A stretch of 64,000 nucleotides of DNA from Gammaproteobacteria bacterium (GCA_027006175.1 JALTKS010000079.1:1-64000); one strand, 5' to 3'. Positions 3,832 through 23,893 are shown, counted from the first letter of the stretch. Made by a program: numbers and translations. Notes: generated by a model not told the origin, from the sequence alone.

Positions 3832-3912
3832 TAATAATTGTGTTTAATGAGTAGATTAAATTATATTTAACAATTGTCACCAATCAAGTAACCAAATAAT
3901 CAGATAAATATT

Positions 3913-5082
3913 ATGACTATAGAAAAACGAGATCTAATTTCTTTGTATAATCTTCCGACTGAAGTGAAATTCTGTAGGAAATGTACAATATCAAATCAAC
4001 GGCCACGGATAACATTTGATAAGAATGGTGTATGCAGTGCATGTAATTTTAAGGAACATAAAAAAAATGATATAGATTGGTTAGATAGGGAGAGAGAACT
4101 AAAGGAATTATGCGATAAACATAGAAGGACTGACGGAAGTTACGATGTTATCGTTCCTTGTAGTGGTGGTAAGGATGGAAGTTTTGTTGCCTCAATGTTG
4201 AAAAGTAAATACAAGATGAACCCTTTGACAGTTACATGGGCTCCTCATATATATACTGATATAGGTAGAAAAAACCTCGACAATTTTATTCAAATAGGTG
4301 GTTTTAATAATATTTTAGGCTCGGTGAATGGAGCAATAAACCGAAGAATGTCACGTTTAGCATTTATTCACATGGGTGATAACTTTCAGCCTTTTATATA
4401 TGGTCAAACAAATTTTCCTTTGCGCATGGCAGTTCAACATAATGTTCAATTAATTATGTATGGTGAGAATGGTGAGGTTGAGTATGGTGGTGATTTAAGT
4501 AACGCTTATAAGCCAACACGTGATATTGCAGACCATGACAAACATTATTTTTCTGGTAAGCCACCTGAGTTTTGGGAGGAACATGGTGTAACCAGAAAAG
4601 ATATCTACCCGTATTTACCACCAAAGTATGATGATATAGTGAAAAATGAAACAGAAATCCATTTTATGTCGTACTATATCGACTGGGATCCACAAGAAAA
4701 CTTTTATCATTGCGTTGAAAATACTGGATTTGAAACAAATCCGACAAGGTCAGAGGGTACTTACTCAAAATATGCAAGTCTGGATGATAAGACTGATGGC
4801 TATCATTATTATCTTGCTTATATAAAGTTTGGTATTGGGCGCGCAACTAGCGATACAGCACATGAAATTCGCGATGAGAAGATAACACGCGAAGAAGGTA
4901 TTGCATTAGTTAAGAAATATGATGGTGAATTCCCCAAAAAATATTTTCGAATATTTTTAGATTACCTGGATATTACTGAAGAGCAATTTTGGGATGTTAT
5001 AGATAGCTGGCGATCTCCACATCTTTGGGAGAAAATCAATAATGAATGGAAGCTTCGACATACTATTTGGAATGAAAGTTAA
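3913..5082 (+). CDS. N-acetyl sugar amidotransferase, WbpG/PseA family
   Basis: A 389-residue PP-loop ATPase. It has two Cys pairs (C21/C24 and C41/C44), likely a zinc site, then the PP-loop CSGGKDGS near residue 80. Members use ATP and ammonia to convert an N-acetyl group to acetamidino on a sugar: PseA in pseudaminic acid synthesis, and WbpG with HisH2/HisF2 in Pseudomonas O5 antigen. HisF- and HisH-like genes follow directly and would supply ammonia from glutamine. Inside a legionaminic acid operon the likely product is an acetamidino-legionaminic acid precursor, as reported for Legionella LPS; that substrate is inferred. Confidence 0.85.
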   Translation: MTIEKRDLISLYNLPTEVKFCRKCTISNQRPRITFDKNGVCSACNFKEHKKNDIDWLDRERELKELCDKHRRTDGSYDVIVPCSGGKDGSFVASMLKSKYKMNPLTVTWAPHIYTDIGRKNLDNFIQIGGFNNILGSVNGAINRRMSRLAFIHMGDNFQPFIYGQTNFPLRMAVQHNVQLIMYGENGEVEYGGDLSNAYKPTRDIADHDKHYFSGKPPEFWEEHGVTRKDIYPYLPPKYDDIVKNETEIHFMSYYIDWDPQENFYHCVENTGFETNPTRSEGTYSKYASLDDKTDGYHYYLAYIKFGIGRATSDTAHEIRDEKITREEGIALVKKYDGEFPKKYFRIFLDYLDITEEQFWDVIDSWRSPHLWEKINNEWKLRHTIWNES

Positions 5083-5090
5083 TTTTCAAT

Positions 5091-5873
5091 ATGCGTAATG
5101 TTCGATTAATTGCAAGATTAGATGTGAAGGCCCCAAACCTTGTGAAAGGAATTCACATGGAAGGCTTGCGTAAATTAGGTGATCCTAATGACTTTGCCCT
5201 CCAATATTATGAGCAAGGAATAGATGAAATATTTTATACAGACATAGTTGCGAGCTTATACGAGCGTAATACTCTTTTTGGAATTCTTGAAAAAGCAACG
5301 GATGATATTTTTGTTCCGATAACCGTCGGTGGTGGTATACGTAGTGTTGCTGATGTTGCCGCTGCTTTAAGGTCTGGTGCTGATAAAGTAGCAATTAATA
5401 CTGCGGCCATTAAAGATAAAAAAATAATATCAGACGTGGCAAAACGTTTTGGAAGCCAATGCATGGTTCTTTCTATTCAAGCAAAATTTATCGATAATCA
5501 TTGGGTCGCTTTTTATGATAATGGTCGGGAATGCAGTGATTTAGATGTTATCGAATGGGCTAAGTTGGGACAACAACTAGGTGCTGGAGAAATAATTCTT
5601 ACTTCGGTTGATATGGAAGGAACTGGAAAAGGTTTTGATTGTTCACTTATGCGAGTTGTTACAGATGTTGTCACTATTCCAGTGATTGCAGGCGGAGGAA
5701 TGGGTAAACCTGATGATTTAGTTCGTGTAGTTAAAGAAGGAAATGTTGATGCTGTTGCAATGGCAAGCGTACTGCATTATGGAAAGCAAACAGTTGATGA
5801 TATTCGAAAATTTTGTATTAAATCAGAGATTCCAGTACGCAATTTACATGATGCAGGACTAAAAGTTGGCTGA
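5091..5873 (+). CDS. HisF-like cyclase subunit paralogue for amidotransferase
   Basis: A (beta/alpha)8 barrel of 260 residues resembling HisF. It keeps the two catalytic-type aspartates, in RLDVKAPN (about residue 11) and LTSVDMEGTGKGFD (about 135). Phosphate-binding GGGIRS and AGGGMG motifs are present. HisF normally makes imidazole glycerol phosphate, but no other his genes are here. The setting next to a WbpG/PseA-type gene matches hisF2 of Pseudomonas O-antigen loci, where it works with HisH to deliver ammonia for acetamidino formation. The N-terminal ligand loop (VKAPNLVKGIHMEGL) differs from housekeeping HisF, in line with a changed role. Confidence 0.85.
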   Translation: MRNVRLIARLDVKAPNLVKGIHMEGLRKLGDPNDFALQYYEQGIDEIFYTDIVASLYERNTLFGILEKATDDIFVPITVGGGIRSVADVAAALRSGADKVAINTAAIKDKKIISDVAKRFGSQCMVLSIQAKFIDNHWVAFYDNGRECSDLDVIEWAKLGQQLGAGEIILTSVDMEGTGKGFDCSLMRVVTDVVTIPVIAGGGMGKPDDLVRVVKEGNVDAVAMASVLHYGKQTVDDIRKFCIKSEIPVRNLHDAGLKVG

Positions 5874-6510
5874 AGCAGTAATTATTGATTATGGTATAGG
5901 GAATATTAGAAGCGTCCAACGAGGTCTGGAAAAAGTTGGTGCTTCTGTTCAAGTCACATCTAATCCAGAAACTATTGCAAGCGCTGAGCGTCTTGTTTTA
6001 CCCGGTGTTGGTGCATTCGAAGATGGTATGAGGGGTTTGCATGAGTCAGGTATGATTCCTGCTATAAGCGAATTTGTGGAAACGGGAAAACCATTACTTG
6101 GAATTTGTCTGGGCATGCAAATGTTATTGAATCAAAGCGAAGAGCATGGTTTGCATGCAGGATTAGGATTTATACCTGGCGAAGTCAAACAGATCCCTAA
6201 TAAAATTAATGATTCAGGTATTCGAAAAATTCCGCACATCGGTTGGGCTGCGCTGGAAAATAAGACCGGTCAGAGCGCCTGGGATTCTACAGTTTTAAAA
6301 GATATAAATTTGGGTGACTATTTTTATTTTGTTCATTCGTTTATGGCTGTAGTCAAAAATGACATGGATGTATTGGCTAGATGTGAATATGAAGGACTTA
6401 AAGTAACAGCTGCGATTCAAAAAGAAAATGTCATTGGTTTGCAATTTCACCCGGAAAAGAGCGGTGTCTTTGGTTTGAAGATTTTGAATGCTTTTATACA
6501 TGATTTTTGA
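5866..6510 (+). CDS. HisH-like glutamine amidotransferase paralogue
   Basis: A class I glutamine amidotransferase of 214 residues. The nucleophile cysteine lies in LGICLGMQMLL (about residues 77-87), and the His-Glu pair in LQFHPEKSG near the C-terminus. It starts at TTG 5866 and overlaps the HisF-like gene by 8 nt. Together they form a glutaminase and ammonia-channel pair that would feed the amidotransferase at 3913. This is a dedicated polysaccharide copy by context. A role in histidine synthesis is unlikely without the rest of the pathway nearby. Confidence 0.87.
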   Translation: MAEAVIIDYGIGNIRSVQRGLEKVGASVQVTSNPETIASAERLVLPGVGAFEDGMRGLHESGMIPAISEFVETGKPLLGICLGMQMLLNQSEEHGLHAGLGFIPGEVKQIPNKINDSGIRKIPHIGWAALENKTGQSAWDSTVLKDINLGDYFYFVHSFMAVVKNDMDVLARCEYEGLKVTAAIQKENVIGLQFHPEKSGVFGLKILNAFIHDF

Positions 6511-6558
6511 CAGTAATTTAGAATATAAAAACTATTATATGGCAAATAATTCAAGAAC

Positions 6559-7644
6559 ATGACATCACCCATATATATAATTGCGGAAGCCGGCGTGAAT
6601 CATAATGGTGATCGCGATTTAGCATTTAAATTGGTTGATGCAGCAATCGAGTCAAATGCAGATGCAGTAAAGTTTCAGGTATTCAAAGCAAAATCTCTTG
6701 TGACTGAAAACACTGCAAAAGCTAAATACCAACAAAAAACAACTAAGGAAAATGAGTCACAACACGATATGCTAGCGCGATTGGAATTATCGTATGATAC
6801 ATATCTTGAATTAAATGCCTATTGTAAGAAAAATGATATTAATTTTATGTCGACAGCATTCGATTCAAGTAGTCTTGATTTTTTAGTCAATGATGTTGGT
6901 CTTAAAACATTAAAAATATCATCAGGTGAAATCACTAATGGCCCATTGCTCCTGGCTCACGCTCAAACAGGCTGCGATTTAATTGTTTCAACTGGTATGG
7001 CAACTTTGGATGAGATAGAAGATGCACTTGGCGTGATCGCGTTTGGGTTTCTTTATGGAGAATCTTTACCTGATAAGTGCTCGTGTGTCGAATTTAAAAA
7101 AGCATATAGTTTACCAAAAGCACAACAATTGCTGCAAGAAAAAGTTACATTATTGCATTGCACAACAGAATATCCTGCGCCAATTGATGAGATTAATTTG
7201 AATGCAATGCTAACAGTTAAAAATGCATTTCACTTGAACGTAGGCTATTCAGATCACAGTAAGGGTATTACGATACCTGTCATGGCTGCGGCATTAGGCG
7301 CCAAAATAATAGAAAAACACTTTACATTAGACAAAACGTTGCCGGGGCCTGATCACGCTGCTTCATTAGAACCCGGTGAGTTGAGAGAAATGGTAGGTGC
7401 AATCCGAACTGTAGAACAAGCATTTGGAAGTGGTATTAAAATTCCAATGCCATCAGAAATAAACAATAAAGATATAGCACGAAAGAGTATTATCGCTGCA
7501 AAAAAAATTAAAATGGGTGAAGTATTCACAGAAGAAAATATTACTATAAAACGACCAGGAACAGGTATTAGTCCAATGCAGTTTTGGGATATCTTGGGTA
7601 AAAAAAGCCTGCGCGATTTTAGCGTTGACGAGATTATTTCTTGA
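6559..7644 (+). CDS. legI: Legionaminic acid synthase, LegI (NeuB family)
   Basis: A 361-residue NeuB-family synthase that condenses a 6-deoxy-mannosamine derivative with phosphoenolpyruvate to give a nonulosonic acid. The TIM barrel holds IAEAGVNHNGD (8-18), VKFQVFK (about 37-43), KISSGE (about 118-123) and GYSDHSKG (about 232-239). The C-terminal SAF antifreeze-like domain starts near residue 300 (RKSIIAAKKIKMGE) and contains KRPGTGISP. Being inside the leg operon supports LegI over NeuB. The following gene overlaps by 4 nt (TTGA). Confidence 0.9.
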   Translation: MTSPIYIIAEAGVNHNGDRDLAFKLVDAAIESNADAVKFQVFKAKSLVTENTAKAKYQQKTTKENESQHDMLARLELSYDTYLELNAYCKKNDINFMSTAFDSSSLDFLVNDVGLKTLKISSGEITNGPLLLAHAQTGCDLIVSTGMATLDEIEDALGVIAFGFLYGESLPDKCSCVEFKKAYSLPKAQQLLQEKVTLLHCTTEYPAPIDEINLNAMLTVKNAFHLNVGYSDHSKGITIPVMAAALGAKIIEKHFTLDKTLPGPDHAASLEPGELREMVGAIRTVEQAFGSGIKIPMPSEINNKDIARKSIIAAKKIKMGEVFTEENITIKRPGTGISPMQFWDILGKKSLRDFSVDEIIS

Positions 7645-8300
7645 ATAACGTAACTACCTTGAAGCCAATAATTATACTTGGTACAGGCGGGCATGCAAAA
7701 GTTGTTGCCGATGCATTGATTCAATCAGGTAACGAAATTCTCGGTTTTATAACTAAAGAAGCGATAGCTGAACAGTCTTTTTTAGGATATAAAATTCTTG
7801 GTGACGACGAGACGATAAAAAATTATCCACCCACTGAAGTTGTGCTGGCTAATGGCGTTGGCGCATTACCATACCAAAATTTGCGTTGGGAACTGTCAGC
7901 AGATATGAGGAGTAAGGGTTATGTTTTTGAAACTGTTATTCATCCATCTGCGATCGTTGCAGATGATGTGAAACTTGCCGAAGGGGTTCAGTTGCTGGCA
8001 AATACAGTAATTCAACCCGGTACACGAATAGGGCGAGATTGTATTATTAATACAGGAACAATACTCGATCATGATTGTTCAGTTGAACAAAATTGTCATA
8101 TTGCTCCAGCTGTGGTGTGTAGTGGTGGTGTACATGTTGGTGAAGGTACTCATTTAGGCACAGGAACAATCATAATTGAAAATATTGATATCGGAAAAAA
8201 AAGTGTAGTAGCAGCAGGTTCGGTTGTTTACCGAAATGTGCCAAATAATATTACTTTTATACAGAAACGCGAAACACGATTAGATGTAAACGAGAGATAA
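7641..8300 (+). CDS. NeuD/PglD-family sugar acyltransferase (LegH candidate)
   Basis: A 219-residue protein with an N-terminal Rossmann-like PglD_N segment (IILGTGGHAKVV, about 11-22) and a C-terminal left-handed beta-helix of hexapeptide repeats. The helix holds a His-Asp pair in LDHDCSVEQNCHIAP, the usual acetyl-transfer site of PglD. It begins at TTG 7641, overlapping the legI stop. In legionaminic acid synthesis LegH acetylates the 4-amino group after LegC, and this is the only acetyltransferase in the module, so it is the best LegH candidate. A NeuD-like O-acetyltransferase role is the alternative. Confidence 0.8.
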   Translation: MNNVTTLKPIIILGTGGHAKVVADALIQSGNEILGFITKEAIAEQSFLGYKILGDDETIKNYPPTEVVLANGVGALPYQNLRWELSADMRSKGYVFETVIHPSAIVADDVKLAEGVQLLANTVIQPGTRIGRDCIINTGTILDHDCSVEQNCHIAPAVVCSGGVHVGEGTHLGTGTIIIENIDIGKKSVVAAGSVVYRNVPNNITFIQKRETRLDVNER

Positions 8301-8303
8301 ATT

Positions 8304-9350
8304 ATGTCCGATTGGAAAAAAATTGTACTTAAATTAAATGATACTTTGCAAAAAGCTATTGAACTTCTTGACAGTGAAGCATTAGGGATAATTATGGTTG
8401 CTGATGAGCAAGGAAAATTGCTTGGAACAGTAACTGACGGTGATATTCGACGTGCCTTAATCAAGAATCATGATATGAACACACCTCTTGCTGATGTTAT
8501 GTTTAAGACTCCAACTGTAGCTTCAGTATCAGCCGATCGCGAGGCTATATTCACAATGATGAGAAGCAAGGGAATCTTGCAAGTGCCTATTGTAGGTATG
8601 GATAGGGAAATTGTGGGGCTTGAAACACTTCAGAATTATCTTGAAGTAAAAAAAATTGATAACCCAGTTTTTTTACTGGCTGGTGGTTTTGGTAAAAGAT
8701 TGCAACCATTGACAGATGATACTCCCAAACCACTTTTAATTGTTGGAAACAAACCAATTTTGGAAATAATAATTAATCAGTTTATAGAGGCCGGGTTCCA
8801 CAATTTTTATATATCAACACACTATAAAGCCGAGTTGATACGTGAACACTTTGGAGATGGAAGTCAGTGGGGTGTGAATATTAATTATGTTCATGAGGAA
8901 AAACCTTTAGGCACCGCGGGAGCTTTAGGTTTATTACCTAAAAATTTACCAGAGCTTCCAATTTTAGTGATGAATGGTGATTTATTAACTAAAGTAAATT
9001 TTGAGCGTCTGTTGAATTATCATATTGAACAAGCTGGGGTTGCGACAATGTGCGTGTGCAAATATGATTTTCAGGTTCCCTTTGGTGTCATAAAATCCAA
9101 AGATTCACAAATTGTGAGTATCGTAGAAAAGCCCGTCCATAATTTCTTTGTTAATGCTGGTATTTATGTGCTTAATAATTCGTTGTTAAAAAGTACAGAT
9201 GGTCAAAGTTATATTGATATGCCACATCTTCTGGAAACACATATTAATAATGAAGAGCCTGTAAACATGTTTCCAATACATGAATACTGGCTTGATATTG
9301 GTGGTATGGAACAGTATGAAAAAGCTCAATTGGATAGTGAGAACTTATAG
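8304..9350 (+). CDS. CBS-domain sugar-1-phosphate nucleotidyltransferase, PtmE-like
   Basis: A two-part protein of 348 residues. The N-terminal 115 or so residues are a pair of CBS domains (GTVTDGDIRRALI, then PTVASVSADREAIF). The C-terminal part is an RmlA-like nucleotidyltransferase with signature LAGGFGKRLQPLTDDTPKPL (about 125-144). This matches PtmE of Campylobacter, which makes GDP-glucosamine for the legionaminic acid route. Its presence suggests that the pathway here also uses GDP-linked intermediates. The CBS pair may sense a nucleotide; the ligand cannot be read from sequence. Confidence 0.83.
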   Translation: MSDWKKIVLKLNDTLQKAIELLDSEALGIIMVADEQGKLLGTVTDGDIRRALIKNHDMNTPLADVMFKTPTVASVSADREAIFTMMRSKGILQVPIVGMDREIVGLETLQNYLEVKKIDNPVFLLAGGFGKRLQPLTDDTPKPLLIVGNKPILEIIINQFIEAGFHNFYISTHYKAELIREHFGDGSQWGVNINYVHEEKPLGTAGALGLLPKNLPELPILVMNGDLLTKVNFERLLNYHIEQAGVATMCVCKYDFQVPFGVIKSKDSQIVSIVEKPVHNFFVNAGIYVLNNSLLKSTDGQSYIDMPHLLETHINNEEPVNMFPIHEYWLDIGGMEQYEKAQLDSENL

Positions 9351-9352
9351 TT

Positions 9353-10054
9353 GTGATCGGAAATAAACACTTACTTGCATTAATACCAGCAAGAGGGGGC
9401 AGCAAACGCCTACCTAAAAAAAATAGTTTAAGTTTTTCCGGTAAACCATTAATAGCCTGGAGTATAGAAGCAGGCTTAAAGTCAAAGTATGTCGACGAGG
9501 TAATTGTCTCTACCGATGATATTGAGATAGCTGAAATTAGTAAAAAATATGGTGCAACTGTTCCTTTTATGCGTCCAATTGAATTAGCGAGTGATACATC
9601 AAGTACAATTGATGTCGTTCGGCACGCAATTGAATATTGTAACCACAATGTTGGTAAATTTGATTATATAGTTGTACTACAACCTACTTCACCACTCAGG
9701 ACGGAAAAAGATATTGATGCCTCGGTTGAAATGCTCAGTAATAACCAAGCAAATGGTATTATCGGTGTGACAGAAATAGAACATCCAGTTGAATGGATTA
9801 ACGTGTTGCCAGATGATTTATCCATGGACAACTTTTTTTTGAATAACAATGACAATAAAAGAAGTCAGGATTTTCCTGTCAGGTATCGTGTCAATGGTGC
9901 GATTTATCTTGGAAAAATAAAAGAGATTCTGGAAAGCAATTCATTTCTGGATGCGGGTAAGGTATATGCACATATTATGGATAAAGCTTCCTCTGTTGAT
10001 ATCGATTGTAAATTAGATTTTGATTACGCAGAGTTTATAAAGAATGCAGGTTGA
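9353..10054 (+). CDS. legF: CMP-legionaminic acid synthetase (NeuA family)
   Basis: A cytidylyltransferase of 233 residues with the NeuA/LegF N-terminal signature LIPARGGSKRLPKKN (about 10-24), which binds CTP. Further landmarks are LQPTSPLRT (about 106-114) and VDIDCKLDFDYAE near the C-terminus. It activates the nonulosonic acid to its CMP form. GTG 9353 lies 2 nt after the previous stop. A second NeuA-type gene (22097) is similar in layout but clearly different in sequence, so the two probably serve different nonulosonic acids. Confidence 0.87.
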   Translation: MIGNKHLLALIPARGGSKRLPKKNSLSFSGKPLIAWSIEAGLKSKYVDEVIVSTDDIEIAEISKKYGATVPFMRPIELASDTSSTIDVVRHAIEYCNHNVGKFDYIVVLQPTSPLRTEKDIDASVEMLSNNQANGIIGVTEIEHPVEWINVLPDDLSMDNFFLNNNDNKRSQDFPVRYRVNGAIYLGKIKEILESNSFLDAGKVYAHIMDKASSVDIDCKLDFDYAEFIKNAG

Positions 10055-10060
10055 TTTAGC

Positions 10061-11620
10061 TTGATTAGTTTTGACTTAAATAATATTAAATCTTCAGAAT
10101 ATTACTGGCCTGTTTCGCGAGACCAGATAAGAAAAATTGATCTTGATGTTTTGCAATTTATAATTAATTATTCAGATAATGAGAGTGATAGTGAGGCATG
10201 CAAGTTTCTGTTAACTATTTTGCCAAAGCTCCGGCTTGAAATAATTAATATTGTTCGTGCTGAAATAATAAAAAAACAGGCGAGACTGGACGGTGTCACA
10301 CCGATGATGCCAGATTGTGCAAAAATATGGAATGCTGTCTGGAATGAACAGGAAATTGCGCAGTCCAGGTTTACTTCCGCATTTAAATATGGTGTGCCCA
10401 AAAGAAGCCTGTTGCGTACGATCGCGCGCCCAATACGAGGGATTAATAATTCTGATGGATTTAGTTACAGAGCGTTTAGCAGCATTAATTTTGATAATGA
10501 TGTGGTTTGTGTAACAAAATGCCCATTGACTATTGAACATATCAAGCATACAGACGATAGAGTAGTGTTGGTTTCATTGTCGGAATGGTTCCATCCACCC
10601 AAAAATACAAATGATTTTGGTCGAACACTATCTGATAGATTTGTATCAAGGTTTATAGGTGACTTATTTGAGCTACTGAATGATAATTATGATGTAGAGT
10701 TATCGCTTGTATCAAAACAATATCTCGAAAGTTGGTTCAAGGAGTCTGGTTTTTGGATTAACTATTATTGTGATAGGGTGCGAAGTAATAAAAAACGACT
10801 ACCTAAAAAGTTATGGATTGGTACTTCGGGAATAGTCTGGTCACGGATGCTAGCAGACGTGGTTTTGGAAGAGCAAGGTGAGGTTGTTGGGCATGATCAT
10901 GCATGGGGTGCGAATTTTTCAACAACAAATCTAATGCCGGTATTTGAAACCAACAACATTAGTAAATATGTTACATTTTCAAAAGCGCAAGTCGATATCT
11001 ATACTGATGTTAGAAAAAAGTATTTTGATGAGTCGAATCCTGTTGAAATAAGTTATTTTAATCTTGCAGCAACCACCAAACCGAAAATTTCAAACAAGAG
11101 AAACGATCTGAAAAGAATAATGTACGTTGCTTCATTTTATCCATGTGATGTTCTGGTTTCAGGTGACATGATGGATACGCAAGTGGCTGTCGATTTTCAA
11201 AAAAAACTTTTTTCTTGTTTGAACAAGTTGGGTTTTGATGTGATGATAAAACCACATCCTCAAAGTCCGCAAAAGTTACCCGATTCGTTAATCAGCGAAT
11301 TTAATGTCGAAGTTCATACAAAATCGTTTGAGGAAGAATGTGATCAAGCTGATTTGTTAATATTTGATTATCCCATGTCGACAACATGGGGGTATGCACT
11401 TGGAACTGATATTCCAATATTGTATATAGACTTTGGTTTGGCTCCCTTGCCTGAAAAAGAACTCCAGTTGTTAGAACAACGATGTTCCCGGATAGAAGGT
11501 TCGTTTGATCAGGATAATAGAGCCGTAATTGATTGGGATTTGATTAAATCGGCGATAAATTCTGCTCCTGATAAAACTGGAAGAAAATATGGGGTGGATA
11601 TACTTGGATTTAGTAGTTGA
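10061..11620 (+). CDS. Unassigned GT-B-like protein (possible glycosyl- or phosphotransferase)
   Basis: I do not recognise the family. The 519-residue protein starts at TTG 10061, 6 nt after legF. Its C-terminal half has a strand-loop reading MIKPHPQSPQKLP (about 394-406), followed by a segment rich in acidic and aromatic residues, ADLLIFDYPMSTTWGYALG (about 429-447). This pattern is seen in GT-B capsule enzymes, CDP-glycerol-phosphotransferase-like proteins and several bacterial sialyltransferases, which share an HP motif. There is no signal peptide or clear membrane segment. Lying next to CMP-legionaminic acid synthetase makes a CMP-nonulosonic acid transferase a reasonable but unproven idea. 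Confidence 0.75.
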   Translation: MISFDLNNIKSSEYYWPVSRDQIRKIDLDVLQFIINYSDNESDSEACKFLLTILPKLRLEIINIVRAEIIKKQARLDGVTPMMPDCAKIWNAVWNEQEIAQSRFTSAFKYGVPKRSLLRTIARPIRGINNSDGFSYRAFSSINFDNDVVCVTKCPLTIEHIKHTDDRVVLVSLSEWFHPPKNTNDFGRTLSDRFVSRFIGDLFELLNDNYDVELSLVSKQYLESWFKESGFWINYYCDRVRSNKKRLPKKLWIGTSGIVWSRMLADVVLEEQGEVVGHDHAWGANFSTTNLMPVFETNNISKYVTFSKAQVDIYTDVRKKYFDESNPVEISYFNLAATTKPKISNKRNDLKRIMYVASFYPCDVLVSGDMMDTQVAVDFQKKLFSCLNKLGFDVMIKPHPQSPQKLPDSLISEFNVEVHTKSFEEECDQADLLIFDYPMSTTWGYALGTDIPILYIDFGLAPLPEKELQLLEQRCSRIEGSFDQDNRAVIDWDLIKSAINSAPDKTGRKYGVDILGFSS

Positions 11621-11687
11621 GTGTTCGGCAGTAATGTTGCCCTAAATTGCTTGAAAATAAAATTTGATTGGTTGAATTGGAAATTAA

Positions 11688-13031
11688 ATGGGTAAAGACA
11701 CAAACAAAAGTAATACAAAAAGAATTTTAATACCATTGCTTTATGATTACTATATGTTCGATTATTTCAAGGATCTATCGGTTCAGCTTGTAAACGATGA
11801 GTTTGATGTGACTATACTTTCATTTGATGAGCGAGTTTTATCGGGGTATGCAAAAGTCGATAAACGAATAAAGCTTGTTAAAGGTTCGCGAATTATGCGT
11901 ATTTTATTCAATCGTTCCGGTAACCTGTTTTTCCGTAGTTTATTATGGATGTTTGGGTGGTTGTGGTGCTTGCCTCTGAAGTTTAAAAATGATTTTGTTA
12001 TTGTGCCCTGGGACAATAAACCACTTTGGTATATTATGACCAGATACCTTCCTGCAATGAGCTGTCATAACTCTACAGAATACCTTGATTTTGAATTAAC
12101 ACTTGAGCACATGCATCTTAGTGATAAGGATAAGAGTGAGAAATGGCGCAGATTATGGCTGCTTGTCGATCATATTATTGGTGGGCGGTTATTGCCCAGA
12201 GTGAATGATGAAATATTGTATTATAATGGATATGCTATTATTGATAAACTAATGGGTTTTCGATCGCCTAATTATCTTCACGGCTATTCTAGTTTAAATT
12301 ATCTTACTGTTACTGGTGAAAAAATTAAAAATAATTTGCTTGGCAATGGGTTGAATAGAAATTCTGAATTTCCAAAAGTGATCGTAACAGGTAGTCCAAG
12401 TTATGAAGGAATTATGCGGATAAAAAATAATTTTACTCAGCTAGATAAGGAAGATATTTACAAACAATATGGTATAAAAAATAATCGCAATTTATATTCC
12501 TTTTTTCTCTCACCTTCAAGCTTCACAAAAGATCAAATAGACGAAGTTGTTACGGTTGTAACTACAATAAGAAATTTTGACCAAAATAGTGCTTTCATTC
12601 TTAAGTTCCATCCAAAAACACAAAAAGGTGACCCGGATAAATTCAGAATGCAGCTAAGTGAATTATCTGATGATCTAGTGATTATTACAGATTTTGGTGG
12701 TGATGAGTTGAATGCAATAATCATACTTTCTTCCAAGTGTGTTGTTCAAAAACAAGGTACCGTAGGATTTATTGCCATGTTGTTTAACCATGCATTGATT
12801 TCCTATAACCTTGTTGACACTGATTATTTTGATGATATGTATGAGCTTGTTGGTGGTTCATTTCATTGTAAAACAAAGAACGAAATAATTCGATCGCTCA
12901 ATAAACTGGATACAGATGGCGGTAAGTCAGAGCTGAAGAAGTTGCAAAATGCCGCATGCAATGATGTTTGTTACCCTAATGATTCTCCTTGCACTGAAAT
13001 ATCGAAAATTATACAGTCGCACTTTTCCTGA
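11688..13031 (+). CDS. Unassigned GT-B-like surface carbohydrate protein
   Basis: A 447-residue cytosolic protein of unknown family. GT-B-like marks are VTGSPSYEGIMR (about 235-246), a strand-HP pair in AFILKFHPKTQKGD (about 302-315) and a C-terminal nucleotide-site-like region SSKCVVQKQGTVGFIAMLF (about 350-368). One hydrophobic patch near 85-98 could be a membrane contact. It lies between two other unassigned GT-B-like genes. The HP motif again recalls sialyltransferase-type or glycerophosphotransferase-type enzymes, but the donor cannot be decided. Confidence 0.73.
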   Translation: MGKDTNKSNTKRILIPLLYDYYMFDYFKDLSVQLVNDEFDVTILSFDERVLSGYAKVDKRIKLVKGSRIMRILFNRSGNLFFRSLLWMFGWLWCLPLKFKNDFVIVPWDNKPLWYIMTRYLPAMSCHNSTEYLDFELTLEHMHLSDKDKSEKWRRLWLLVDHIIGGRLLPRVNDEILYYNGYAIIDKLMGFRSPNYLHGYSSLNYLTVTGEKIKNNLLGNGLNRNSEFPKVIVTGSPSYEGIMRIKNNFTQLDKEDIYKQYGIKNNRNLYSFFLSPSSFTKDQIDEVVTVVTTIRNFDQNSAFILKFHPKTQKGDPDKFRMQLSELSDDLVIITDFGGDELNAIIILSSKCVVQKQGTVGFIAMLFNHALISYNLVDTDYFDDMYELVGGSFHCKTKNEIIRSLNKLDTDGGKSELKKLQNAACNDVCYPNDSPCTEISKIIQSHFS

Positions 13032-13050
13032 TATAATCAAAAGATAAAGA

Positions 13051-14463
13051 ATGAGTGTGATGATTAAGCAACCTGCTAACAGGTTTATTGATGTAGTAAT
13101 CAAGTCAAAAAATAAAGGGCGCATAAAAAAATTAGCTGTAGCTATTTTTAGGAGAATTGCCAGACAGAAATGGGTCATGCCGCTGATTATAAAGTATGTC
13201 GTCTCAGAGTTAACTCTTCTGTCAAGCAATAAAAATAGTGATAAAAAAATTCGTTTGTTAGTACTTAATGAAGAACGTTACAAGGCTGATTTGGAAGTAT
13301 TATCTGAACATCCTGATGTTGAGCTGATTTCTTTACCTTCAGCTGTGCAACATTTAATAAACTCTCTTTGGGTCTCGGAATTAAGAGAGTTATCACAAAA
13401 GAATCCAGTGGCATATTTCGAATGCAAAGAACCGGCTGTTATTGAGGTGAGAAATAAACTAGCAATATTTCTACAGGATTTTATACTCAGGTTGAAATAT
13501 AAGGTTAAATTTGATGCCCTAGTTACATGTACTTTCTATTATAGGCAAGATAAAGATTGGGAGATTGCGGCCGAAAAAATCGGGATTCCATTTTTTGCTA
13601 TCCACAAGGAAAACATGAAAGATCCGATAGTCCATAAAATAAGTATTGATGGCTACAAGAGAAAACATATTAAGTTTTATGGGCGTAGAATATTTTTATT
13701 TAATGAATTAGAGAAAAGTGTACTTCTAAATGCTGATGTGTCCACTGAAGATAAAGTATCAGTTGTTGGTGGTTTAAGGATGGATCGAATTTTTAAACGT
13801 ACTGACTCGGGTGATGTAAAAGAACCTGGGCGGAAAGTTGTACTCTTTTCATTTCATCATTGTATCGGATTGCTCGACATACCTGATGCTATTAGATATT
13901 TTAGCACGCGACGTGATGTTGGATTTGTTGAATATTTTGATTTGGTGCATGGTATGGTTGCACAGTTTGCAGCAAATAATCCAGATGTTGAAGTGGTTAT
14001 CAAACCAAAGTGGGAAGAAGAATGGAATGATCATATTCGCAATGCGATTGAAAGAGTGACTGGTATAAACCCGGATGCAATACCTAATTTAAAAATCACA
14101 GGAAAAGTACCAGCGCAAACCTTGATTGAAGAATCTACAGTAGTTGTTGGTCTTAACTCTACGACTTTACTCGAGGCAAAATTATTTGGTCGACGTGTGG
14201 TCGTCCCATTGTTGGCTGAAGCCAGGGGAAAGTATTTTGACAAACATGTATATTTTCACAAATATTTGGATACGTTCAATACGCCAGGATCACCTGAAGA
14301 GATATTGGTTGCTTTGGATGAGGAATTAAATGGTATATCACCTGTTCGTGATCTAAATCATGAAATGATTAGGGATTATCTGGGTGTTTATGATGGCAAT
14401 GTTGCTAATCGTATGGTCAATATTATGCGTTCTGAAATCAATGTTGACAAAGTACAACTTTAA
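13051..14463 (+). CDS. Unassigned GT-B-like protein, third of three in a row
   Basis: A 470-residue protein. Its second half has the order expected for a GT-B enzyme: VVGGLRMDRIF (about 235-245), VVIKPKWEEEW (about 312-322), KITGKVPAQTLIEESTVVVG (about 349-368) and NSTTLLEAKLFGRRVVVPLL (about 370-389). These resemble the UDP-sugar or CDP-polyol binding half of surface carbohydrate enzymes. No export signal is seen. The three genes from 10061 to 14463 are similar in size and fold but not obvious duplicates. Confidence 0.73.
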   Translation: MSVMIKQPANRFIDVVIKSKNKGRIKKLAVAIFRRIARQKWVMPLIIKYVVSELTLLSSNKNSDKKIRLLVLNEERYKADLEVLSEHPDVELISLPSAVQHLINSLWVSELRELSQKNPVAYFECKEPAVIEVRNKLAIFLQDFILRLKYKVKFDALVTCTFYYRQDKDWEIAAEKIGIPFFAIHKENMKDPIVHKISIDGYKRKHIKFYGRRIFLFNELEKSVLLNADVSTEDKVSVVGGLRMDRIFKRTDSGDVKEPGRKVVLFSFHHCIGLLDIPDAIRYFSTRRDVGFVEYFDLVHGMVAQFAANNPDVEVVIKPKWEEEWNDHIRNAIERVTGINPDAIPNLKITGKVPAQTLIEESTVVVGLNSTTLLEAKLFGRRVVVPLLAEARGKYFDKHVYFHKYLDTFNTPGSPEEILVALDEELNGISPVRDLNHEMIRDYLGVYDGNVANRMVNIMRSEINVDKVQL

Positions 14464-17257: not shown

Positions 17258-18484
17258 ATGAAATATTACGTTGAATTGCCTGAGTTATGGGCTACTGAGT
17301 TTTTAGAAAATGATCCGGATTGTGCGGGTTATTGGGTGAGCAGTCTGACGCAGTCTTGGCAAAAAGGTTACCCCGATAATTGTACAGTTCCATGGACAAA
17401 TTATGTTGATGTAGTACGAAGATTAAGGCTACATAGTGATAAGAAAATAATTGTAGATGTTGATATGTTATATAACGAACCAAGTATTGCAGCTACCGTG
17501 GCGCGCGAATTATACGAGGCAGGTTGTAATACGATTGTTGTTGAATCCAAACGCTTTCCTAAAGTTAATAGTTTAACTCCGGATTCAATGGTGTTAAGTA
17601 CACCAGAAGAATTTTGTCGGCTATTAAATAAAGTAAAAACTACAGTGCCAGAGTTAGAGGTTATCGCTAGAAATGAATATCTTGCCACAACAAAAGATGT
17701 TGATGTAACAGCTAGAATTGCTAAGCGTGCTTTGCATGCTGGAGCAGATGGTGTGGTTATACATTGGGGTGGTGATTCAAATACAGAGCTCCTGAAAAAA
17801 ACGCTAAAAAAATTAAAAGCAGATGGTGTGCAGACAGGTATTATACCAACTAAATATCTGGATCAGGTTGTCGATGGTGATTTTGAAGACCTAGCCGACT
17901 TTAGTATTTTAGGTAACATATGTTCATCATATATTCGACATATTTTCAGCCAACAAAGCGTGTCATCGTTACTGAAGATTCCTTGTGAATTCAAGTCCAT
18001 ACTTGATCGTGTTAATAGTCACGAACCAGCGGGGCATAACACGCTGGTTGTGTTGGGTGCAAAAGCGACAAAAGATGGTTCGTATATGTTGTCAAACAAA
18101 GACGTTGCTAAACAATTTACAGATAAACTGAGCGACTATTACTCAGTCGTACTTGTTGTAGGAGAAGATGCGGATATATCAGTTGATGAGAATGACAAGA
18201 TTCATGTTGTTCGAGTAGCTGATTCTCTCGGTGAAGTACATTCCCTCTCATCTGCAATGGAACTGTTAAATACTGAAAGTGTAACGGTTGCGTACGCAGA
18301 TATTGAAGACTTCGGTATGAATAATATGGGCACAAATGGATTGCTGTTTGATGGTGATGTATATGCAGGGGTTATGAATGTTGCATCGGATGTTTTGTTA
18401 TCGATGGTGGCTTCGGTTGATCCCACTGCTTCCATATTGGAAATGGCTTCAATAAATAATGTTAAATCAACAGTCATTAATTAG
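17258..18484 (+). CDS. Phosphoenolpyruvate mutase with extra C-terminal domain
   Basis: Residues 1-275 form the PEP mutase/isocitrate lyase barrel. PEP mutase residues are conserved: D40 (GYPDN), D67 and D69 (VDVDMLYN), E96, K98, K102 and N104 in ESKRFPKVNS (family: EDKxxPKxNS), and IPTKY near 200. The enzyme turns PEP into phosphonopyruvate, the entry step to C-P compounds. Residues of about 285-408 are extra. They look like a worn MobA/RmlA-like nucleotidyltransferase (TLVVLGAKATKDG, then DSLGEVHSLSSAMEL and VTVAYADI), without the usual GxGxR...KP signature. A good ribosome-binding site (AGAAGGAG) precedes the ATG, 7 nt upstream. The next two genes complete the 2-aminoethylphosphonate route. 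Confidence 0.87.
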   Translation: MKYYVELPELWATEFLENDPDCAGYWVSSLTQSWQKGYPDNCTVPWTNYVDVVRRLRLHSDKKIIVDVDMLYNEPSIAATVARELYEAGCNTIVVESKRFPKVNSLTPDSMVLSTPEEFCRLLNKVKTTVPELEVIARNEYLATTKDVDVTARIAKRALHAGADGVVIHWGGDSNTELLKKTLKKLKADGVQTGIIPTKYLDQVVDGDFEDLADFSILGNICSSYIRHIFSQQSVSSLLKIPCEFKSILDRVNSHEPAGHNTLVVLGAKATKDGSYMLSNKDVAKQFTDKLSDYYSVVLVVGEDADISVDENDKIHVVRVADSLGEVHSLSSAMELLNTESVTVAYADIEDFGMNNMGTNGLLFDGDVYAGVMNVASDVLLSMVASVDPTASILEMASINNVKSTVIN

Positions 18485-18493
18485 GGTGGCGCA

Positions 18494-19801
18494 TTGACTG
18501 CAAAACGCATAATGGTCGATATGTCTGTGACGTTAATTCATCACGGACATGTTCGGTTGATAAAAAAAGCTGCAGAGCATGGTGATGTTATTATTGGGTT
18601 AACATCTGATGAACAGATCCTGGATATGAAAGGTTATGAGCCTGAGCTTTCATTCCAACACCGAAAGGAAATACTAGAATCAATAGAAGCCGTTAAGGAA
18701 GTTGTTGAAACACCATGGCTGATAACTGAGGAAGTACTTGATTCTTATTCAATAGACCTTCTGGTTCATGGCAATGATAATTCAAATCCAATTGCTAAAA
18801 ATAGACTGTTGGTTCTTCCTAGAACAGATGGTGTTAGTAGCACTGAATTACGCCAAAGAGCACTAAAATCGATCACAAATATTAATAATAACAAACTAAT
18901 GTTAACGCCGGGTCCGGCTGTTGTTCTTCATGAAAATTTGATGGGGCTTGTTCCTGTGTTTGGTAGAGGTGATGAAGAATACCAGAAAGTGGAGAAAACC
19001 GTTCTTAGCTGGGTTAAAAATCTATCCGGTCAGGATAATATTGTTATGGCTCAAGGCTCAGCAACCTTTGCAATTGAATTGGCATTGCATTCATTTGTGT
19101 CAGGAAAAGTTTTGTTGGTAAGCACAGGATTTTATAGTGACCGGTTAAAAGAGTTACTTCCTGAGAACTGTGAGTTGACCACTATAAAATATGATGAGTT
19201 ATCAAGTATTGAGGGTAAATTTGACTGGCTATTGTCCGCATATACAGAAACCAGTCATGCCTTTAAAGTTGATCTTAAGCTTATACGAGATAAAGCAAAT
19301 TCTTTAGGAGCTAAATTGTTTGCAGATGCGACAGGTTCAATTGGTCTGGAGGATAAGCACGATTTATGTGACTTAATCGCTTTTAGTTCCTGTAAAGGAC
19401 TATTTGGATTAACGGGAGCTGCATTTGTTGCGTATAAAAGTAAACTCGATATTATAAAAAATGATGGCTTCTATACAAACTTAGAAACACATATCAACCA
19501 TCAAGTAACAGGGCCATATCATGCGGTCGCTTCGCTTTATAACGTTATCGATATTCATGATGTGCTAAAAAATAGAGTAGAAGAGAGTAAAAGAGCAGTT
19601 ATTGAAACATATGCGAAATATATTACTCGCCTGGAAAATCAGCCACTTTTGTGTACTTACCTTGAAGGTGATGTTATGAGAAAAGATGACAATATTGTAT
19701 TGTACACGCCAAGAAGTGATTTATCTGGCTCTGTTATTTGCCATTTCGGTGAAATACATCGCCGTAATGTAAATTTAATTAATAGAATAGATATAAAATA
19801 A
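18494..19801 (+). CDS. Fused cytidylyltransferase and 2-aminoethylphosphonate transaminase-like protein
   Basis: Residues 1-125 are a TagD/ECT-like nucleotidyltransferase with HxGH at H16-H19 (TLIHHGHVRL) and the second motif GVSSTELRQ (113-121). Residues of about 135-435 are a class V aminotransferase close to 2-aminoethylphosphonate:pyruvate transaminase: it opens with LMLTPGP and has the likely PLP lysine in SSCKGLFG. Predicted roles are amination of phosphonoacetaldehyde to 2-aminoethylphosphonate and its activation with CTP to the CMP ester. In many capsule loci this TagD-like domain is instead fused to PEP mutase, so the partner has been exchanged here. It starts at TTG 18494, 9 nt after the mutase gene. 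Confidence 0.83.
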   Translation: MTAKRIMVDMSVTLIHHGHVRLIKKAAEHGDVIIGLTSDEQILDMKGYEPELSFQHRKEILESIEAVKEVVETPWLITEEVLDSYSIDLLVHGNDNSNPIAKNRLLVLPRTDGVSSTELRQRALKSITNINNNKLMLTPGPAVVLHENLMGLVPVFGRGDEEYQKVEKTVLSWVKNLSGQDNIVMAQGSATFAIELALHSFVSGKVLLVSTGFYSDRLKELLPENCELTTIKYDELSSIEGKFDWLLSAYTETSHAFKVDLKLIRDKANSLGAKLFADATGSIGLEDKHDLCDLIAFSSCKGLFGLTGAAFVAYKSKLDIIKNDGFYTNLETHINHQVTGPYHAVASLYNVIDIHDVLKNRVEESKRAVIETYAKYITRLENQPLLCTYLEGDVMRKDDNIVLYTPRSDLSGSVICHFGEIHRRNVNLINRIDIK

Positions 19802-19843
19802 TTGATTGATTATGTTTGTTCTTATTAAAAGTAGGAATTATAA

Positions 19844-20929
19844 GTGCTAGACACAAAAGAATTTGTAAATAAATTATATGATGAAGGTTATACACACTTG
19901 TGTGTTGTTCCATGTAGTTTTGCAAAAAACCTGATAAATGCCTCAATTAATAATAATGATAAATTGGAGTATGTGCCATGTGCGAGTGAAGCAGTTGCAT
20001 GCTCGATTGCTGCTGGCATGAAAATGTCAGGAATGAGACCTATTGTTATTGTTCAATCATCAGGTCTTACCAATATGGGAAGCTGTATTACAAGCATGCT
20101 TAAACCATACGAGATTACATTCCCAATTATTGTTAGCTGGAGAACGTATAAATCGGGTGATAGTGAGATACAACATGAGCATTTGGCAACGAAACTACCT
20201 GACCTTGTGTCAGCGTATGGTTATGAGCATACATTATTAGATAACGAGAATCTGGGTAATGCGATAAAACAAATAACTGTAAGTGAGAGTGCTAGAATTA
20301 TTTTGCTATTACAGAAAAACACATTTACAACAGTTAAGCTTGATGATGAGTTCAAACTTGATCTTTCAGAATTACCACTAAGAAGCTCATATTTAAAATA
20401 CCTCGGTAACGTATTTAATAGTTCAGATTATATTTTTATTGGTACGACTGGAAATACGGCAAGAGAAATGTACAGTTATATGCCAAATACAGATAATGTT
20501 TATATGGCAGGAAATATGGGCGGAGCCCTAAGCCTGGGGCTTGGGATGGCTAAGTCAGGAAATAAAATTATAGTATGTGGTGGTGATGCTGAGTTTGTGA
20601 TGCATATGGGTGGGATGACCACCGCAGGTCGTTATAACGATAGTGAATTAAATTTGGTATATATATTATTTGATAATCAGTCAAACAAGAGTACCGGTGG
20701 GCAGCGATCGTATCAGGAGCATTTAGATTACATCGGTTTAGCTAAGTCTTCTGGTCTATCAGTTAGTGATAAAATTATAAGAGATAACAAAAGTTTTGAA
20801 ATTGAAATAAAAGATGCCATTGCAAACGGTGGTATTAGTTTTATGCATGTGAAATGCTCTTACGATCCAGAAACACCAAGACCACCTCTTGCAGTTGTTA
20901 AAAGAAATAGCATAATCAAAGGAAGTTAA
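19844..20929 (+). CDS. Phosphonopyruvate decarboxylase
   Basis: A thiamine-diphosphate enzyme of 361 residues. The N-terminal half holds the conserved glutamate in CASEAVACSIAAGM (about 46-59). The C-terminal half holds MAGNMGGALSLGLGMA and the ThDP-Mg motif GGDAEFVMHMGGM, ending at DNQSNKSTGG. It decarboxylates phosphonopyruvate to phosphonoacetaldehyde, the step that pulls the unfavourable mutase reaction forward. GTG start at 19844; 1 nt separates its stop from neuC. With its two upstream neighbours it gives a complete AEP pathway. Confidence 0.9.
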   Translation: MLDTKEFVNKLYDEGYTHLCVVPCSFAKNLINASINNNDKLEYVPCASEAVACSIAAGMKMSGMRPIVIVQSSGLTNMGSCITSMLKPYEITFPIIVSWRTYKSGDSEIQHEHLATKLPDLVSAYGYEHTLLDNENLGNAIKQITVSESARIILLLQKNTFTTVKLDDEFKLDLSELPLRSSYLKYLGNVFNSSDYIFIGTTGNTAREMYSYMPNTDNVYMAGNMGGALSLGLGMAKSGNKIIVCGGDAEFVMHMGGMTTAGRYNDSELNLVYILFDNQSNKSTGGQRSYQEHLDYIGLAKSSGLSVSDKIIRDNKSFEIEIKDAIANGGISFMHVKCSYDPETPRPPLAVVKRNSIIKGS

Positions 20930-20930
20930 T

Positions 20931-22082
20931 GTGAAACGACGTATTTGTGTTGTTGTAACTGCTCGACCATCCTATTCAAGAATTAAATCTGCATTACTCG
21001 CTATAAAAAAGCATCCTGATCTTGAGTTACAGCTGGTTGTTGCTGCTTCTGCATTACTTGAGAGATATGGTTCTGTTGTTGATGTAATGCGCGAGGATGG
21101 TCTTGAACCAGATGCGCAGGTTTATATGGTTGTCGAAGGAGAAAATCTGGTTACAAGTGCTAAATCAACCGGGATTGGTATAGTCGAACTTGCAACTATT
21201 TTTGATAATTTAAAGCCTGATGCTGTATTGAGTATTGCTGATAGGTATGAAACTATAGCTACAGCAATCACTGGTTCTTATATGAATATACCTGTTATCC
21301 ATGTGCAGGGCGGAGAAGTAACAGGCTCTATTGATGAGAAAGTAAGACACGCCGTGACAAAATTATCTAATGTACATCTTGTATCGAATAAAGGTGCATA
21401 CGATAGGGTTGTAAAGATGGGTGAAGTAGAAGGTTCAGTATATATTACTGGCTGTCCTTCAATTGATTTAGCAAAAGATGTTATGAATGGTATGACATAT
21501 GAGGATTTTGACGACCTGAAACGTGGTGTAGGTGCACATATTGATTTTAACTCGGATTATATTATGGTAATGCAGCATCCGGTTACAAATGAATGGCAAG
21601 AAGCACAAATGCAAATGACGGAAACACTCAAGGCAATCGAGAAATGTGAGTATCCAGCATATTGGTTTTGGCCAAATGTCGATGCTGGTTCGGATGCTGG
21701 ATCAAAGGCTATTCGAACCTTCCGCGAACAAGGTCGTTGTAAAAATATTCGCTTCTTGAAAAATCTTCCTCCAGAAGCGTTTTTATATGTGCTGAAAAAA
21801 TCAATGTGTCTTGTTGGCAATTCAAGTGTAGGGATCAGGGAGTCATCATATTTAGGTATACCTGTTGTAAATATAGGTTCTAGACAAGCTGGTCGTGAAC
21901 GCAGCGCTAATGTTATCGATGTCGATTATGATGAAAATTATATTTTAGAGGCAATAAAAACTCAGGTTACAAATGGACATTATGCTTCAAGTGATATTTA
22001 TGGGGATGGTTCAGCTGGAGAAAGAGTTGCAGATGTATTAAGCAAAGTAGAATTTAATATCGATAAGAAAATAACATATTAA
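20931..22082 (+). CDS. neuC: UDP-GlcNAc 2-epimerase (hydrolysing), NeuC type
   Basis: A second hydrolysing NDP-sugar 2-epimerase of 383 residues. It has TARPSYSRIKSAL at the N-terminus, SIADRYET (about 103-110), HVQGGEVTGS (about 124-133) and VGNSSVGIRESSYLG (about 297-311). NeuC converts UDP-GlcNAc to ManNAc for sialic acid synthesis. The HVQGGE and RPSYSRIK forms and the neuA-neuB genes right after it separate it from legG at 2662. GTG start one base after the decarboxylase stop. Confidence 0.88.
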   Translation: MKRRICVVVTARPSYSRIKSALLAIKKHPDLELQLVVAASALLERYGSVVDVMREDGLEPDAQVYMVVEGENLVTSAKSTGIGIVELATIFDNLKPDAVLSIADRYETIATAITGSYMNIPVIHVQGGEVTGSIDEKVRHAVTKLSNVHLVSNKGAYDRVVKMGEVEGSVYITGCPSIDLAKDVMNGMTYEDFDDLKRGVGAHIDFNSDYIMVMQHPVTNEWQEAQMQMTETLKAIEKCEYPAYWFWPNVDAGSDAGSKAIRTFREQGRCKNIRFLKNLPPEAFLYVLKKSMCLVGNSSVGIRESSYLGIPVVNIGSRQAGRERSANVIDVDYDENYILEAIKTQVTNGHYASSDIYGDGSAGERVADVLSKVEFNIDKKITY

Positions 22083-22096
22083 TACTTGGATTATGT

Positions 22097-22819
22097 GTGA
22101 CGAATAAAATACTGGCAATTATTACAGCTCGAGGTGGCTCAAAAGGAGTTCCGAGAAAAAATATAAATCAGCTGGCAGGTAAACCTCTTATTGTTCACAC
22201 AATTGAGCGTGCATTAGCGGTTAAACCAGAACTATTATGTGTCTTAGTAAGTACAGATGATGAAGAAATAGCCGAGATTAGTCGGAAAGCTGGTGCGTAT
22301 GTGCCATTTTTACGTCCCAATGAATTTGCAACAGATGAAGCAGCATCATTTGATGTGGTTAAGCATGCAGTCGAATATTATGAAGGTAAGCATGATTCGT
22401 TAATAGATTGGTCGCTTATATTACAGCCGACTACGCCTCTTAGAACAACTCATGATATATCTACCGCGATACAACTAACAGTCCGTAGAGAAACCGATAC
22501 GATAGTTTCAGTTTATGATGCCGAGGACACACATCCCGGGAAAATGAAAAAACTAGATAAAGATGGATTATTGATACCATTTATTTCAGATGCACCATGG
22601 TTATCTAGAAGGCAGGATTATACACCTAAGGCTTATTGTACAAATGGTGCTATATATATGACACGTAGAGATGTTCTTTTTGAAAAATCAACTTTAATTG
22701 GTGAAAGAGTTGTTCCATATGTTATGCCAGCAGCCAGATCGATTGATATAGATACACAATTAGACTTTGATATTGCAGACATATTGATGACGCGTCAATT
22801 ACAAGAAAATAAAATATAA
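22097..22819 (+). CDS. neuA: CMP-sialic acid synthetase-type cytidylyltransferase
   Basis: A 240-residue NeuA-family enzyme. The CTP-binding signature is IITARGGSKGVPRKN (about 8-22), followed by LQPTTPLRT (about 111-119), CTNGAIYMT (about 181-189) and SIDIDTQLDFDIAD near the end. It activates a nonulosonic acid with CTP. Its flanks (neuC and neuB) suggest Neu5Ac or a close relative as substrate. GTG start at 22097. Confidence 0.87.
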   Translation: MTNKILAIITARGGSKGVPRKNINQLAGKPLIVHTIERALAVKPELLCVLVSTDDEEIAEISRKAGAYVPFLRPNEFATDEAASFDVVKHAVEYYEGKHDSLIDWSLILQPTTPLRTTHDISTAIQLTVRRETDTIVSVYDAEDTHPGKMKKLDKDGLLIPFISDAPWLSRRQDYTPKAYCTNGAIYMTRRDVLFEKSTLIGERVVPYVMPAARSIDIDTQLDFDIADILMTRQLQENKI

Positions 22820-22837
22820 CTTTATCAATAACTATAA

Positions 22838-23893
22838 ATGACAAAACAAATAAAAATCAATAACAATCTAATTGGTAACAACCATCGTACATTTATAATA
22901 GCCGAAGTAGCACAGGCTCATGATGGTTCACTTGGGATGGCTCATGCTTTTATTGATATGGCAGCAGAAGCTGGTATAGATGCAATTAAATTTCAGACAC
23001 ATATTGCATCAGCTGAATCAACATTAGATGAAACATTTCGAGTTGCTTTCAGCCATCAGGATCAGACGCGTTATGATTATTGGAAACGAATGGAGTTTAC
23101 TCAAGATCAATGGCAAGGATTAGCCAGACACGCAAATGACAATGGTTTGGTTTTTCTTAGCTCGGCTTTTTCTCTAGAGGCGGTGAATCTTTTAAAGGAA
23201 TTGGATATGCCTGCTTGGAAAATTGGTTCGGGTGAGTTTCGATCAACCTCACTTATCGATACGATGCTTGATACGGGTAAACCGATCTTGCTTAGTACAG
23301 GAATGAGTAATTGGGATGAGATCGATAACTCAGTAGCTTATATAAAGGATAAGGGAAATGATGTTGCTATTTTCCAATGTACTAGTCAATACCCAACGCC
23401 ATTAGACAAGGTGGGTTTGAATAATATTGATGAAATACGAAATAGATATAATTGTGTTGCAGGACTGTCTGATCATTCGGGCACTATTTGGCCGTCAATA
23501 TCTGCTATGGCTAAACGTGTAGATATTGTAGAAGTACATATTACAATGCATCCAAAAGCATTTGGTCCTGATGTTTCTTCTTCTTTGACAACCAGTCAGT
23601 TAAAAACTGTAGTAGAAGCAAGAGATGCTTTTGCAATTATGCATAATAATCCTATTAGTAAAGATATGATGGCTTCTGAAATGCGTGAAATGCGTAACCT
23701 ATTTACAAAGAGCGTTGCACCTAAACGTGATTTGAGTGCAGGAGAAGTTCTAGAAGCGGGTATGTTAACATTGAAAAAACCTGGTACGGGCATTCCTGAA
23801 ACTGAAATGACTAAATTATATGGTAAGAAGTTATTGCATGATGTGCCATGTAATGTTTTATTAAAATACTCAGATATTATAGATAGAAATTAA
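22838..23893 (+). CDS. neuB: N-acetylneuraminate synthase-type enzyme
   Basis: A 351-residue NeuB family protein. Barrel motifs are IIAEVAQAHDGSLG (about 21-34), AIKFQTH (about 49-55), KIGSGEFRST (about 128-137) and GLSDHSGTIWP (about 209-219). The C-terminal SAF domain contains SVAPKRDLSAGE and KKPGTGIPE. It condenses ManNAc (or a derivative) with PEP. Compared with legI it has AQAHDG where LegI has GVNHNGD, in keeping with a different substrate class. Its TAA shares the A of the next ATG (TAATG). Confidence 0.87.
   Translation: MTKQIKINNNLIGNNHRTFIIAEVAQAHDGSLGMAHAFIDMAAEAGIDAIKFQTHIASAESTLDETFRVAFSHQDQTRYDYWKRMEFTQDQWQGLARHANDNGLVFLSSAFSLEAVNLLKELDMPAWKIGSGEFRSTSLIDTMLDTGKPILLSTGMSNWDEIDNSVAYIKDKGNDVAIFQCTSQYPTPLDKVGLNNIDEIRNRYNCVAGLSDHSGTIWPSISAMAKRVDIVEVHITMHPKAFGPDVSSSLTTSQLKTVVEARDAFAIMHNNPISKDMMASEMREMRNLFTKSVAPKRDLSAGEVLEAGMLTLKKPGTGIPETEMTKLYGKKLLHDVPCNVLLKYSDIIDRN

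Follow-up and report, generated by a model that had tools for sequence, protein, structure and literature searches.

A candidate pathway to activated 2-aminoethylphosphonate, with a divergent PEP mutase homologue, in a bacterial glycan locus

What a set of phosphonate-type genes contributes to a bacterial glycan locus was the question raised by positions 17258-20929 of the window, the whole 64,000-nucleotide stretch from a Gammaproteobacteria bacterium (GCA_027006175.1, JALTKS010000079.1:1-64000) that was analyzed. An ORF scan found three plus-strand ORFs filling exactly this interval: a PEP mutase (PepM) homologue (17258..18484; 408 amino acids, with a barrel at residues ~20-215 and a C-terminal domain at ~250-408); a fusion of a cytidylyltransferase and a 2-aminoethylphosphonate (AEP) transaminase (CyT-AEPT; 18494..19801; 435 amino acids, with PF01467 at residues 5-122 and a class V domain at ~132-435); and a TPP-dependent phosphonopyruvate decarboxylase (Ppd; 19844..20929; 361 amino acids). 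The gaps between them were 9 and 42 nt, respectively, and 1 nt lay between Ppd and the following NeuC-type gene. The best family match of each protein was the corresponding enzyme of the AEP pathway, the scores of PepM, the transaminase, and Ppd all being below the curated equivalog cut-offs. The gene set from PEP to AEP that a preliminary description had placed in this interval was recovered in these scans for all three enzymes; the CTP-activation domain that it had also proposed was found (PF01467), on the transaminase gene and not on that of the mutase. Judged by their sequences, the three adjacent genes very probably make and activate AEP, a C-P compound with which cell-surface sugars are decorated. 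A promoter/terminator scan gave results no better than those of shuffles.

We read the interval as a phosphonyl-tailoring (Pnt-type) module (probability of roughly 0.7), by which AEP would be made, activated to CMP-AEP, and placed on the glycan of the locus by a candidate transferase. The divergent PepM would isomerize PEP to phosphonopyruvate, Ppd would convert this to phosphonoacetaldehyde, the transaminase domain would yield AEP, and the fused PF01467 domain would form CMP-AEP from AEP and CTP; a putative transferase would then attach AEP to the surface glycan of the locus, which also carries two nonulosonic acid pathways. The weakest links of this predicted pathway are the transferase (LicD was absent from the genome) and the mutase activity.

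The PepM homologue passed the broad Pfam cut-off (PF13714; E=2e-19), and scored 86.3 bits with TIGR02320 (PEP_mutase; cut-off, 319.55), compared with 32.8 bits for the phosphonopyruvate hydrolase model and 27.5 bits for the PrpB model. The mutase model was ahead of the hydrolase and lyase models by >50 bits in all three bacterial members: the window and two related loci, L032 (from a Thiotrichaceae MAG) and L033 (from a Candidatus Parabeggiatoa MAG, likewise Thiotrichaceae). Identity to ordinary mutases was ~30%. D40, D67, D69, E96, K102, and N104, listed as kept in the preliminary description, were indeed present and aligned with D58, D85, D87, E114, K120, and N122 of the Mytilus enzyme (1m1b), as did R138 and H169 with R159 and H190 (numbering taken from that alignment); these metal and substrate ligands were invariant in all four full-length relatives, including that of a phage. 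On the other hand, residues 96-105 read ESKRFPKVNS and departed from the diagnostic EDK(X)5NS motif: Mytilus D115, the second motif residue, corresponded to S97, and Ser was found at this position in 3/3 bacterial members. In ordinary PepM rows of the same class, the motif was EDKxxPKxNS in 21 and EDKTGLKKNS in three (from two genomes), whereas EDQxxPKRCG was seen in two lyase-type rows. The hydrolase-like L025 (DTS) is set apart from mutases by the N of their NS pair. This comparison indicated that the ESK-type PepM retained the mutase spacing and N104-S105, where lyases have Cys-Gly, and lacked the lyase Cys; the residues argue for a predicted mutase function. The earlier claim stood as to the residues, while it had been silent on S97, the unusual C-terminal domain, and the distance from ordinary PepM.

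The C-terminal region (17978..18481, plus strand) was common to L032, L033, and Vibrio phage Va2, and its ~160 amino acids (residues 250-408) matched no Pfam or NCBIfam model. A MobA-like remnant was considered for this domain; when its profile was compared with MobA-like tails from ordinary PepM fusions, the alignment followed the expected order, but the resemblance to MobA-like nucleotidyltransferases was weak (probability 3.9%), no Pfam match was seen, and this origin lacked significant support. The AlphaFold model of PepM, for which one alignment row from an annotated record was left out, was weak (pLDDT 53), its top PDB matches being PEP mutases; the PepM barrel was the only fold confirmed in the search with AlphaFold models. 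In two trees, the clade of the window and the Va2 protein were joined with full support, away from lyases. Clustering of the mutase with lyases, which had been named as one outcome that would speak against the pathway, was absent in these best trees; however, a forced grouping with methylisocitrate lyases was not rejected (p-AU 0.17), the branches being long. Purifying selection on PepM was strong (dN/dS ~0.10), and no second PepM was found in the genome of the window.

The matches of the two other proteins were similarly distant. TIGR03301 (PhnW-AepZ) was the best model for the transaminase domain, with 54 bits against a cut-off of 361, and 7e7g was the best PDB match (E=8e-9); the domain comprised ~300 amino acids, compared with ~370 in known AEP transaminases, and SSCKG, including the presumed PLP lysine K301, was invariant in the aligned relatives of the fusion. 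The cytidylyltransferase domain at the N-terminus of this gene (PF01467; E=8e-14) carried an HHGH motif and had ethanolamine-phosphate cytidylyltransferase as its top PDB match. The AlphaFold model of the fusion (pLDDT 47) was too poor for a check of the active site. Ppd contained the TPP-binding domains PF02775 and PF02776 and scored 184.6 bits with TIGR03297 (cut-off, 312.5); the sulfopyruvate decarboxylase models scored lower (86 and 75 bits). A sulfonate pathway (sulfopyruvate/taurine) was rejected because Ppd outscored these models and PepM was present.

The surroundings of the cassette bear on the fate of the predicted CMP-AEP. A legionaminic-type nonulosonate pathway was encoded at 521..10054 (plus strand): LegB and LegC (both above their curated cut-offs), NeuC-like, an amidination set of WbuX, HisF/WbuZ-like, and HisH proteins, and NeuB-like, NeuD, sugar-1-P nucleotidyltransferase, and CMP-nonulosonate synthetase-like genes. 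Family scans revealed a second set of NeuC-type epimerase, CMP-nonulosonate synthetase-like (NeuA), and NeuB-like genes at 20931..23893 (plus strand), and its NeuC-type gene, starting 1 nt after Ppd, is therefore probably co-transcribed with the cassette as a member of its operon by spacing. Given these two sets, two nonulosonic acids are likely; the preliminary description had placed the cassette within such a locus, and the gene content agreed with it. Three large, probably GT-B-type ORFs (10061..14463, plus strand) are candidate nonulosonate or phosphonyl transferases; among them, the only significant Pfam match was that of 10061-11620 to A-2_8-polyST, and this ORF also aligned weakly with a PF04464 protein in a pairwise comparison. 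Reading of the downstream sequence revealed a flippase-like and polymerase-like ORF and many glycosyltransferases in the window. An 806-amino acid ORF at 34676-37096, without a Pfam match, appeared as a flippase-like protein fused to a polymerase/ligase-like membrane protein, and tandem, near-identical transglutaminase-like ORFs were present within the glycan locus at 39307-40095 and 40269-41048. Just 5' of a polysaccharide deacetylase gene, a formyltransferase-like gene (15360-16161) was degraded by a frame change at ~15631-15640 and an in-frame TAG at ~15748; the pathway that it served has probably been lost.

The cassette recurred in other genomes and is, therefore, not a chance arrangement. 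A search of related loci, which the preliminary description had proposed, detected PepM, CyT-AEPT, and Ppd in L032 and L033, using an alignment that paired the window and phage PepM; single-sequence PepM scans of genome and viral contigs gave no match. Both loci had the gene order of the window plus one extra gene between CyT-AEPT and Ppd (a methyltransferase in L032, an ORF without a Pfam match in L033), and flippase-like genes, as read from the sequence, adjoined the cassette in both. Identities to the window were 65% for PepM, 61-62% for CyT-AEPT, and 57-58% for Ppd, and the ESK motif was retained in all three loci. The dN/dS values of the L032/L033 gene pairs were 0.10-0.14; dS was saturated for CyT-AEPT and Ppd of the window, and values are given only where dS was estimable. 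The fusion was found in 2/43 genomes of the Parabeggiatoa order, those of L032 and L033, and relatives in the same genus as the window genome were without this PepM; this patchy spread would fit the transfer of a surface-glycan cassette. In L033, a B12-binding radical SAM protein (8321-9979) located directly 5' of PepM recalls CMP-phosphonate methylation of the Fom3 type. A second, ordinary-looking Ppd and a full-length AEP transaminase-like ORF were also observed in the Parabeggiatoa genome, apart from the cassette (L060; genome G749, contig C550).

Plasmids contained only ordinary homologues, and class, phylum, and order searches returned ordinary PepM or no further cassette, with the exception of genome G1111. 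On a 1.54 Mb contig, this genome contained LicD, a canonical CyT-PepM (EDKTGLKKNS; 418 bits), Ppd, CyT-AEPT, and then a PF04464 glycerophosphotransferase-like gene. Ppd and CyT-AEPT of G1111 were 62 and 66% identical to those of the window, respectively. Since these two proteins are orthologous and the mutase of G1111 is canonical, the divergent PepM appears to fill the mutase slot of the module, which is our strongest argument for its role as a mutase. G1111 also links the predicted module to LicD-type tailoring; by combining this Ppd/CyT-AEPT pair with a canonical mutase, it provides a natural complementation design. The flippase-like genes of L032 and L033 and the LicD of G1111 place these relatives in a glycan setting as well.

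Against this background, the divergent PepM may instead be a hydrolase or lyase of the PEP mutase/isocitrate lyase superfamily, leaving the AEP pathway incomplete. ESK in place of EDK, the low similarity, and the p-AU value of the lyase grouping would agree with such an assignment, which is nevertheless improbable in view of the margin of the mutase model in the three bacterial members, the retention of N104-S105 without the lyase Cys, and the lack of another PepM in the genome; furthermore, in bacteria this protein always occurs with Ppd and CyT-AEPT, whose orthologues elsewhere pair with canonical PepM. Less probable still is a cytidylyltransferase whose substrate is phosphoethanolamine or a different alcohol phosphate, next to a catabolic transaminase or an unrelated class V enzyme, with coincidental neighbors. 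Its top PDB match points in this direction, AEP being the C-P analogue of the substrate of that enzyme; however, the domain has an AEP transaminase-like fusion partner, linkage with PepM and Ppd is seen across four genomes, and, according to PMC6697681, Fom1 has a PF01467 domain with phosphonate activity.

The alternative with a slightly better chance than a non-mutase PepM, although still unlikely, accepts the formation of CMP-AEP and directs AEP to a lipid, via a CDP-alcohol phosphotransferase encoded elsewhere in the genome, or leaves it as a free metabolite, rather than attaching it to the polysaccharide of the locus. No LicD homologue was found in the genome and no CDP-alcohol phosphotransferase in the window, while three genes for the latter were present elsewhere in the genome and one was located ~4 kb upstream of the cassette in L033. 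Bacteria often have two CDP-alcohol phosphotransferases for ordinary phospholipids; therefore, three are a weak sign. The cassette lies within a glycan locus and is separated by 1 nt from a nonulosonate gene, which favors decoration of the locus glycan with AEP, as in the Pnt-type reading.

The AEP pathway and its logic are already known. The Pnt pathway consists of Ppm-Ppd-AEPT-PntC (Rice et al. 2019, PMC6697681), and the same report describes AEP activation by CTP and the fusion of a nucleotidyltransferase with AEPT as demonstrated in it, a phosphonate-active PF01467 domain in Fom1, and, by citation, an AEP-bearing capsular polysaccharide of Bacteroides fragilis. The same four activities are predicted here in a glycan neighborhood, and the fusion of the window resembles Tde1415 of Treponema denticola; however, the activating domain is of the PF01467 (Fom1/TagD) type, whereas Pnt has a LicC/MobA-like PntC, and the window has a divergent ESK PepM in a genome without LicD. 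PepM shares the barrel fold and aligned metal/substrate residues with canonical PEP mutases (Mytilus 1m1b and Streptomyces 5unc), but differs by its low identity, the replacement of D115 by Ser, and the additional C-terminal domain without a family match. As in Fom1 (5x3d), the fused CyT-PepM of the fosfomycin pathway, a PF01467-type cytidylyltransferase is linked to a PepM pathway, fused here to the transaminase and in Fom1 to the mutase. AEP, the predicted end product, would be a charged surface decoration as in the B. fragilis capsule, while the present cassette adjoins two nonulosonic acid pathways. A PF01467-AEPT fusion was not described in the sections covered of PMC6697681, and no description of ESK-type PepM loci was found in the open-access literature. 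As far as searched, new features are a PepM of the ESK type that carries the additional C-terminal domain, the joining of PF01467 to AEPT, and a mutase that is exchanged around a conserved Ppd/CyT-AEPT pair. According to PMC6697681 and PMC8931226, two published counts of phosphonate producers rest on EDK(X)5NS PepM sequences, and surveys filtered in this manner would drop ESK loci. If the ESK mutase is active, published counts omit a real lineage, and the motif positions that are needed must be redefined.

Phage relatives extend this comparison. The cultured Vibrio phage Va2 (L031, MW073017.1) encodes relatives of Ppd (7131-8231; 36-38% identity) and PepM (11932-13236; 35% identity), the latter full-length with the same C-terminal domain, and both genes flank ribonucleotide reductase genes. 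This PepM differed from that of the window in that EDK was retained and NS was preceded by one additional residue, and the Va2 genome yielded neither a transaminase nor a cytidylyltransferase relative; further viral scans yielded no more Va2-like copies. It is conceivable, although we hold this at somewhat below even odds, that PepM of the ESK type with its C-terminal domain forms, with the Va2 protein, a separate and unrecognized C-P bond-forming branch that motif censuses have missed, common to bacterial glycan loci and phage, with a non-LicD transferase placing AEP on a nonulosonic-acid glycan. The phage copies of PepM and Ppd also raise the question of how phages use C-P chemistry. Two IMG/VR contigs (L034, 7502-13121; L035, 8074-10741) carried an ordinary PepM, a split Ppd, an iron-type alcohol dehydrogenase, and a cytidylyltransferase, and L034 additionally contained LicD-like and nonulosonate (NeuB-like) genes; these phage-like gene sets suggest the activation of hydroxyethylphosphonate by phages.
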